From Gilliamella sp. wkB171 (lineage in GTDB: Bacteria; Pseudomonadota; Gammaproteobacteria; Enterobacterales; Orbaceae), in assembly GCF_001693755.1 (NCBI RefSeq), contig NZ_LYST01000039.1, positions 62,001 through 126,000 on the forward strand: DNA of 64,000 nt. Reading direction: 5' to 3'. The notes under the pieces were generated by a model, which was given only the letters and a program-made list of their open reading frames with translations, searched no databases and was not told the origin of the DNA. Of this stretch, positions 11,266 through 12,892 are shown one piece after another (positions within the stretch are counted from its first letter, which is position 1; each line of letters starts with the position of its first letter). Position numbers and translations under genes: made by a program.

Positions 11266-12892
11266 ATGTTACTATGTAGTTATGTGAAGCCAGCCAGCCA
11301 GCCAGCCAGCCAGCCAGCCAGCCAGCCATAAAAATTTAGCTAATACTCAAAATCCGAGTAAACGCTTTTATCAACCGTTTTACCATTATTTAATCAATTA
11401 TATACCTTCTAAACCGTTTCTTTTATTTCAGTCAAATAATGACAATTTATCTCATTCATCAATTTATTTAGGCTGTTTATCAAGGTTATTTAAATACATC
11501 TTTATCAGTGCTGCTATTTTTGATTTATTTTTTATTTCTTTTGCGGTTAATGCATTATCAGCGTCAACAACGAGTGTAATTCATGGTTTTGCTCCCTATT
11601 TGACATTCGATAATGGCAAAGTTAAGGCCGATAATACTAGTCAGTTATTAAGTATTAACTTTTACTTACCTGATGGCTCACTCAAAACTATTACCGCTGA
11701 TCAAAATCTCTCAACCGAAACAAATCCTATAGTATTGCCACACGATGTTACTTCGTTTGATAATATTATGACATTTATTCCCTATGGTGAGACTTCAATT
11801 GATTTAAATGAACTAACTAGCAATTACTATGATTTTGCTAGAGATGATGATGGTGATTCGGATATGTCAGCAACAGGGAATATGTCGATTGACATTGAAG
11901 ATAACCAAAATAAAACTGTGCAGTTAACTGATCATCTTTCTGCATGTAATGCACCTTATAAAATTAAATTAACAACCACTAATGGTTCATTAACAACTAA
12001 GTATGGCATTCCAAACTCTTCATTGTTTACAAAGGCTGAAACTGTTTATTTTGTTACGCCTGAAATAACCCATTCCTATGCTTGTTATGCCCAGCCTAAT
12101 TTAAAATTTGGTGATGATAATAATAGTACCGGTAATGGTTATAATAATCTGTATTTTGCGGGCCCAACTCAGCAATGGGATCCGACTAAAGGCTTTAAAG
12201 TAATCAATGCCGATTTACCTTCGGCTAACTTTCCTCGAACTGGATCTAATAATTTGTTCTTCTTATTAACATTTGTTGGTACAACGGCTAAACAAGTTAT
12301 CGCCTCAACCCCTACAACGCCTGAAAAAGGTAGTGGTGCTGCCTTGGTATTGACTGCACCAAATGGTGATGATGGTAATGTAGTTAAAATATTATTACAA
12401 GGCCCTAAACACCCTAAAGGAGGTCTATTTGAACCCGCAACTTTCAAAATATATTCCGATCCTGAAAAAACAAATCAGATTTATAGTTTTGAGATTATTA
12501 GGTGGTTCATTACTAGTAAGGATGTTGTTCCCTATAATACTAAAGACGATTTAACTGGCGTTGCGACTGCAAGCGAGTATTGTCATAGTTTAGAAGGTGA
12601 ATATGAAGTGCCTTATATCATTAACTACACCAATAGTAAAAAAAATGATTTTGGCATTGGCGGTAATTACACGCGAGAGATTGATACTTTAGGGCATCTA
12701 TTTTCTGAATGGGGGTATACCAGTTCTACTTACTATAGCGCAAGTGATTGGGCAACAGATTCCTATTGGTCAAACAATCCGGTAGGGGATGGAACGACTG
12801 ATCAATATTTGGTGACATCGTACATTGGTAGTATTAGAAAAGAAAAACCGTCTTATATGGGTAATAAGGTAGCTTGTGTAAGCGCTTATTAA
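11266..12892 (+). CDS. Phase-variable exported adhesin-like protein, out of frame (OFF) here
   Basis: A good ribosome-binding site (AGGAAAGG, 11251-11258) precedes ATG 11266. The frame enters ten AGCC units and meets TAA at 11329, giving only 21 residues (MLLCSYVKPAS...). The frame that is open all the way to 12892 lacks any ATG or GTG before the repeat and is entered only if the unit number changes by -1 or +2. The ON protein would be 540 residues: a 75-residue N-terminal extension, a hydrophobic signal core (about 76-93, then NALSA), and a roughly 440-residue secreted part with four cysteines (SACN, YACY, EYCH, VACV). The C-terminal pattern YCHSL...LFSEWG...SYWSNN...VACV resembles lectin-like domains at the ends of enterobacterial adhesins; this is an inference. 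A later TTG at 11600 lies past the signal sequence and is an unlikely start. Confidence 0.8.
11288..11327 (+). repeat. Tetranucleotide tract (AGCC)10
   Basis: Ten perfect tandem copies of AGCC (plus a following A). The tract begins 22 bases after the ATG at 11266, inside the coding sequence. Because 4 is not a multiple of 3, each slipped unit changes the reading frame, the classic contingency-locus layout. Confidence 0.95.

Follow-up and report, generated by a model that had tools for sequence, protein, structure and literature searches.

A tetranucleotide tract as the probable translational switch of one gene in a large family of secreted, lectin-like proteins of the bee gut symbiont Gilliamella

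A gene for a secreted protein in Gilliamella sp. wkB171 carries ten AGCC units between its start codon and the body of its reading frame, and was sequenced in a phase in which only a short leader is read. With high probability the best explanation is that the gene belongs to a large contingency family and undergoes translational phase variation. Slipped-strand mispairing, the presumed cause, would gain or lose 4-bp units here and 7-bp units in sister genes, so that cells within a population would switch. Neither unit length is divisible by three, and so only one repeat phase would be productive, i.e. would link the ATG and its ribosome site to the leader, the signal sequence and the exported Ig/lectin-like protein. 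The repertoire of related secreted proteins numbers up to 40 or more, of which each cell would make a small, changing subset.

The stretch of DNA analysed, here called the window, comprises 64,000 nucleotides. Within these 64 kb the AGCC tract was the sole perfect short-unit array reported by TRF (array 11288-11328, period 4, match 100%, with 10 full units). The ATG at 11266 is placed 7 nt 3' of its ribosome-binding site. From there 21 codons are read through the tract up to the TAA at 11329, i.e. the sequenced state is OFF. The ON-phase frame is unbroken to its stop at 12890-12892, and the third phase is closed after the tract by a stop at 11337. When the number of units was varied in silico, 9 units gave a predicted product of 540 aa and 12 units one of 544 aa; 8, 10, 11 and 13 units gave just 21-25 aa. 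The units, not divisible by three, thus lie between the start codon and the ORF body, and the full product comes from one phase out of three. This arrangement, an OFF gene at 10 units with a single usable phase that requires 9 or 12, had been proposed in a first-pass annotation of the window. Every coordinate it gave was exact, and the in silico unit counts agree with it. The features are collected in Table 1.

Table 1. Coordinates of the window gene, its surroundings and the MutS-domain-I-like genes (window positions unless a locus handle is given).
Feature	Position	Strand	Basis or remark
Ribosome-binding site AGGAAAGG	11251..11258	+	sequence read directly
Leader ORF into the tract, 21 codons + TAA when OFF	11266..11331	+	sequence, unit-count model
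(AGCC)10 tract, proposed switch	11289..11328	+	TRF, unit-count model
Intact ON-phase frame, 534 codons + stop; joins ATG 11266 at 9 or 12 units	11288..12892	+	
Pre-signal leader, ON phase only, without ATG/GTG/TTG	11329..11482	+	
Signal sequence RLFKYIFISAAIFDLFFISFAVNA, putative cleavage site, ends just 5' of family motif LSxxTxxxIxGxxPYL	11483..11554	+	sequence, alignment, hydrophobic core
Mature secreted protein (predicted; about 445 aa), with a beta-rich, Ig-like region and, C-terminally, a C-type-lectin-like tip	11555..12889	+	model pLDDT 85, PDB matches
C-terminal lectin-like domain, limits approximate, the family's most variable part	12560..12889	+	
Short ORF weakly similar to Y1 (IS200-like) transposases, between window gene and hemN	13004..13408	+	Pfam Y1_Tnp E=0.025, below cut-off
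MutS-domain-I-like genes 3' of long-tract genes	L011 4688-5248, 9931-10491; L009 2796-3305	-	Phe kept, FxE Glu not
MutS-domain-I-like genes 3' of long-tract genes	L033, L034, L046, L169, L170, L171		Phe kept, FxE Glu not

The observation that the ON frame lacks an ATG or GTG between tract and signal sequence was confirmed. The first ATG, GTG or TTG 3' of the tract in this frame is TTG 11600, which lies already past the signal sequence. It opens a 430-aa ORF. Furthermore, the 70-odd residues which precede the signal sequence are an unusual length for a Sec substrate. Both points would suit an internal start 3' of the tract, in which case tract length would be irrelevant. Yet a protein initiated at TTG 11600 would have no signal sequence and would remain cytoplasmic. 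We looked near the hydrophobic signal core of 74 repeat genes from three genomes for internal starts preceded by a ribosome site: 72 genes had none, and the other two had weak candidates. Frame-keeping leader indels from the tract onward are likewise unexplained if the leader is not translated: in strain wkB178 the distance between tract and domain had 16 different lengths, every one a multiple of 3. The other two leader frames were closed in 148 of 148 cases in the 74 genes. We consider an internal start very improbable. From the pattern of lengths and frames the leader appears to be translated.

Runs of four or more AGCC units were found at five sites in the 2.67-Mb wkB171 genome, all at the 5' ends of paralogues of the window gene (10, 12, 16, 20 and 22 units), and the reversed pattern was found at none. 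Therefore, the array at the window gene is not a chance occurrence. Similarly, 12 of 12 ATCGGGC tracts of this genome were located at family genes, with 0 places for the reversed pattern. AGCC arrays of 7-35 units were present in 8 of 35 Gilliamella genomes, and a reversed 6-unit pattern in none of the 35. In three genomes the family spans contained 22 (65 kb), 34 (70 kb) and 18 (46 kb) arrays, and the sequence outside these spans 1 (107 kb), 3 (60 kb) and 0 (47 kb).

A family profile search identified 37 members in the wkB171 genome. Other Gilliamella genomes had from 0 to 47, and members were present in three of four other genera of Orbaceae; with the window protein as a query, none were found in families elsewhere in the order. 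Pfam, NCBIfam and PHROGs had no name for the family, and no account of it was found by title and abstract in the open-licence literature on Gilliamella and the honey bee gut. It constitutes a large, undescribed Orbaceae family. An array of tetra- or heptanucleotides is present at the gene's 5' end in at least 22 of the 37 wkB171 members. The units are AGCC (5 genes), ATCGGGC (12 genes), AGCAGGC x13, AAAACGC x3 and AGACACC x3. Other species use AAGACAC, CAACACA, AACACCC, TGGCATC, AAGCACC x12 and ACAGCAC x25 or more, as well as an octamer, CCACGCAA x23. In a sister genus, Frischella japonica Ac13 has family members without detectable arrays (L103); the switch may have been added within Gilliamella. 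Repeat-free members had an in-frame start in 13 of 15, 4 of 5 and 6 of 7 cases in three genomes and look locked ON. Array-less members near 1951(+) in L047, at 1637(-) in L035 and at 1393(-), 6372(-) and 11750(-) in L038 mostly have an in-frame ATG with a ribosome site; the L047 copy resembles a decayed ATCGGGC array and has no in-frame ATG.

The states of the repeat genes were scored from an ATG with a ribosome site, for scorable genes only. In wkB171, 4 of 20 scorable genes were ON and 16 OFF; in a third genome none were ON and 18 OFF. In wkB178 (G023, L154-L167), 33 paralogues with three heptamer units were all in the same OFF phase and one, with four units, was ON (L164, ORF from 6389). 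Since 7 equals 1 modulo 3, a heptamer gene of wkB178 is ON with one or four units and OFF with two or three. If slippage ran freely, about one gene in three would be expected ON, which does not fit the strong three-unit OFF bias. An assembly effect should not account for the three-unit distribution, because at 21-26 bp such arrays are too short for normal reads to collapse. The longest arrays of the draft genome may be misassembled; draft contigs L033, L046 and L169 end within ATCGGGC arrays. Could the ten-unit count of the window gene be an assembly artefact, the gene truly being ON? The contigs that end inside longer arrays would be in keeping with this, but ordinary short reads exceed the 40-bp array in length, the array is located within a 228-kb contig, and both states were seen in sister genes, which makes such an error quite improbable.

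The single ON gene beside 33 OFF genes in wkB178 is also what one would expect if OFF genes were silent cassettes, donating by gene conversion to one expressed locus, with repeats that just silence the donors. The near-identical 5' ends of the paralogues and their most divergent C-termini agree with this. Against it, the arrays are unstable themselves, as other genomes have long arrays of 7-35 units in mixed states and orthologues differ in unit number, and several genes are ON in wkB171. We regard this explanation as unlikely.

That most repeat-bearing copies are OFF might alternatively mean that the family is decaying, i.e. that OFF genes are pseudogenes with a fixed frame offset. However, all wkB178 copies which match over most of their length had open frames of about 450-590 codons with 0 stops. 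In wkB178 paralogue pairs, nearly all of them OFF-OFF, the domain had a dN/dS of about 0.48 and the leader one of about 0.62, values to be read qualitatively as the pairs are not independent. This largely refutes decay, to which we assign next to no probability. Judged by these substitution patterns, OFF genes appear to be in use and under purifying selection.

Phase variation by unit change predicts whole-unit differences between strains. These were found at two sister loci when wkB171 was compared with two very near relatives, both incomplete genomes (G049 and G050). An ATCGGGC array was one unit shorter in G049 (L254) than in wkB171 (L034), the sequences being 94% identical overall. An AAAACGC array had exactly two units fewer in G049 (L255) than in G050 (L260) and wkB171 (L037), at 96-97% identity. 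In both comparisons the flanks were 94-97% identical. The main ATG was out of phase in every copy of both comparisons, hence these orthologues did not differ in ON/OFF state. The expectation of stepwise strain differences was thus borne out in part, at sister loci; the window locus itself had no orthologue among the relatives examined. Overall, the switch initially proposed from one gene is strengthened by 37 paralogues with mixed ON/OFF starts, by its recurrence throughout the genus with different units, by frame-preserving leaders and the signs of purifying selection on OFF genes, and by the whole-unit differences between orthologues.

The window gene lies between rsmC and hemN. These two genes were readable together in 27 relatives. 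In 16 of the 27 they were less than 300 bp apart, compared with 2442 bp here, and the window gene was missing from those 16. The window gene is accessory, because rsmC and hemN are near-adjacent in so many relatives. A GC-rich imperfect palindrome, GTAGGGCGAAAGCTTGCTGAGCCCTC, is present at 12964-12995, just 5' of the Y1-transposase-like ORF; the pair recalls REP/RAYT elements.

What might the switched proteins do? An AlphaFold model of the window protein (pLDDT 85) has a beta-rich Ig-like region and a C-type-lectin-like C-terminal tip. Whole-chain structure comparison with the PDB gave weak Ig/S-layer matches. The C-terminus matched Legionella Lcl (8q4e, Foldseek prob 0.97) and intimin Int190 (1e5u, prob 0.66). 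By sequence, a match to Intimin_C was sub-threshold (E=0.19), and Invasin_D4 matched in 6 of 25 members tested (best E 8.7e-5). Among wkB178 members pairwise identity was 0.37-0.54 in the majority of the final 120 alignment columns and 0.7-0.9 in most of the remainder. The family proteins may share with intimin/invasin and Lcl a layout in which an Ig-like part leads to a C-type-lectin-like tip; unlike these, they are without an inverse-autotransporter barrel or a collagen stalk, and the sequence matches are weak or sub-threshold. No inverse-autotransporter barrel was detected by Pfam or NCBIfam, the mature protein having about 445 aa, and no membrane anchor was found. The earlier designation as adhesin-like is plausible on account of the Ig-like fold, the Invasin_D4 matches and the resemblance of the C-terminus to Lcl and intimin. 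The family proteins are probably adhesins or surface lectins. A ligand-binding, diversifying function at the cell surface would go along with this, and the window protein would be host-facing. Two other origins were considered. A diversity-generating retroelement target, an idea raised by the lectin-like C-terminus and by the small partner genes (see below), was rejected as RVT_1 is absent from the wkB171 genome, and a phage tail-fibre origin was dropped as the window protein had no PHROG match.

Several family genes are followed by a small partner gene. In the loci examined it was located directly 3' of 14 of 28 long-tract, 2 of 83 three-unit and 0 of 69 repeat-free family genes (Fisher 1.6e-11, with member genes that are not independent). 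The window gene itself has no partner. On a tree built from 178 members there were about 10 changes of the partner label and 16 of the long-tract label. Because both labels change repeatedly, the association does not reflect one clade. The 13 best PDB matches of the partner model were all MutS (prob 0.90-0.99, E 0.03-0.1). An invariant Phe aligned with F36 of E. coli MutS, the residue that stacks on the mismatch, and the position of E38 was Q or R. Alignment of partner and MutS profiles gave E 2.4e-4 at a probability of 43%, the Pfam match to MutS_I was sub-threshold, and a sequence search of the PDB returned a chance match only. The partner, about 113-191 aa, thus has the predicted fold of MutS domain I with its stacking Phe, and corresponds to domain I alone; the ATPase, lever and clamp domains of MutS are absent. 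Possibly it binds slipped-strand loops or interferes with mismatch repair and so tunes the switching rate, which would make this a contingency system with its own mutation-rate modulator. This proposal is unlikely to be correct. If functional, the link between long tracts and a MutS-domain-I-like gene would constitute a new control of local mutation rate.

Known systems share parts of this design. The opa genes of Neisseria are a multigene surface-protein family whose members are switched independently by a CTCTT repeat at the 5' end of the coding frame. They encode about 4-12 outer-membrane barrels, and the repeat is inside the signal sequence. The Gilliamella family, probably also of surface proteins, likewise has 5' repeats in most of its members, each of which would switch independently; however, it has up to 40 or more Ig/lectin-like proteins unrelated to Opa, with tetra- and heptamers 5' of the signal sequence. 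AGCC is a known phase-variation unit in H. influenzae, where tetranucleotide arrays are likewise at or just after the start codon and a unit change shifts the frame (PMC2651432). There, the arrays are at 12-14 mostly unrelated loci per strain, whereas here many members of one family carry them, with several unit types. The neuO gene of phage CUS-3 in E. coli K1 is switched by 5' heptamers (PMC13001214). Its unit AAGACTC, at the coding 5' end and productive in one phase of three, is very similar to AAGACAC of Gilliamella. neuO is a single enzyme gene with 3-53 units, full-length at multiples of 3, whereas Gilliamella has dozens of genes, mostly OFF at three units and ON at four (or one). The vlhA genes of Mycoplasma gallisepticum resemble the present case as a large family, of haemagglutinin genes, with a repeat at the genes, most of which are silent and few expressed (PMC6258824). 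Yet the vlhA repeat is a trinucleotide, GAA, in promoters and acts on transcription at 12 units; the Gilliamella repeat is within the coding sequence and acts by frame.

The data suggest that individual cells differ in the small part of a large surface repertoire which they display. About 2% of the genome of a beneficial or commensal bee gut symbiont belongs to one secreted lectin-like family, which is mostly switchable, and different Gilliamella species have recruited different repeat units. Most of what is known of repeat-driven phase variation comes from pathogens. In the present case it can be tested in a tractable animal whether a mutualist needs antigen or ligand switching to persist in an insect without adaptive immunity, or whether the switch serves escape from phages or the matching of glycans. 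A second testable question is whether each cell expresses no more than a few members of the repertoire.
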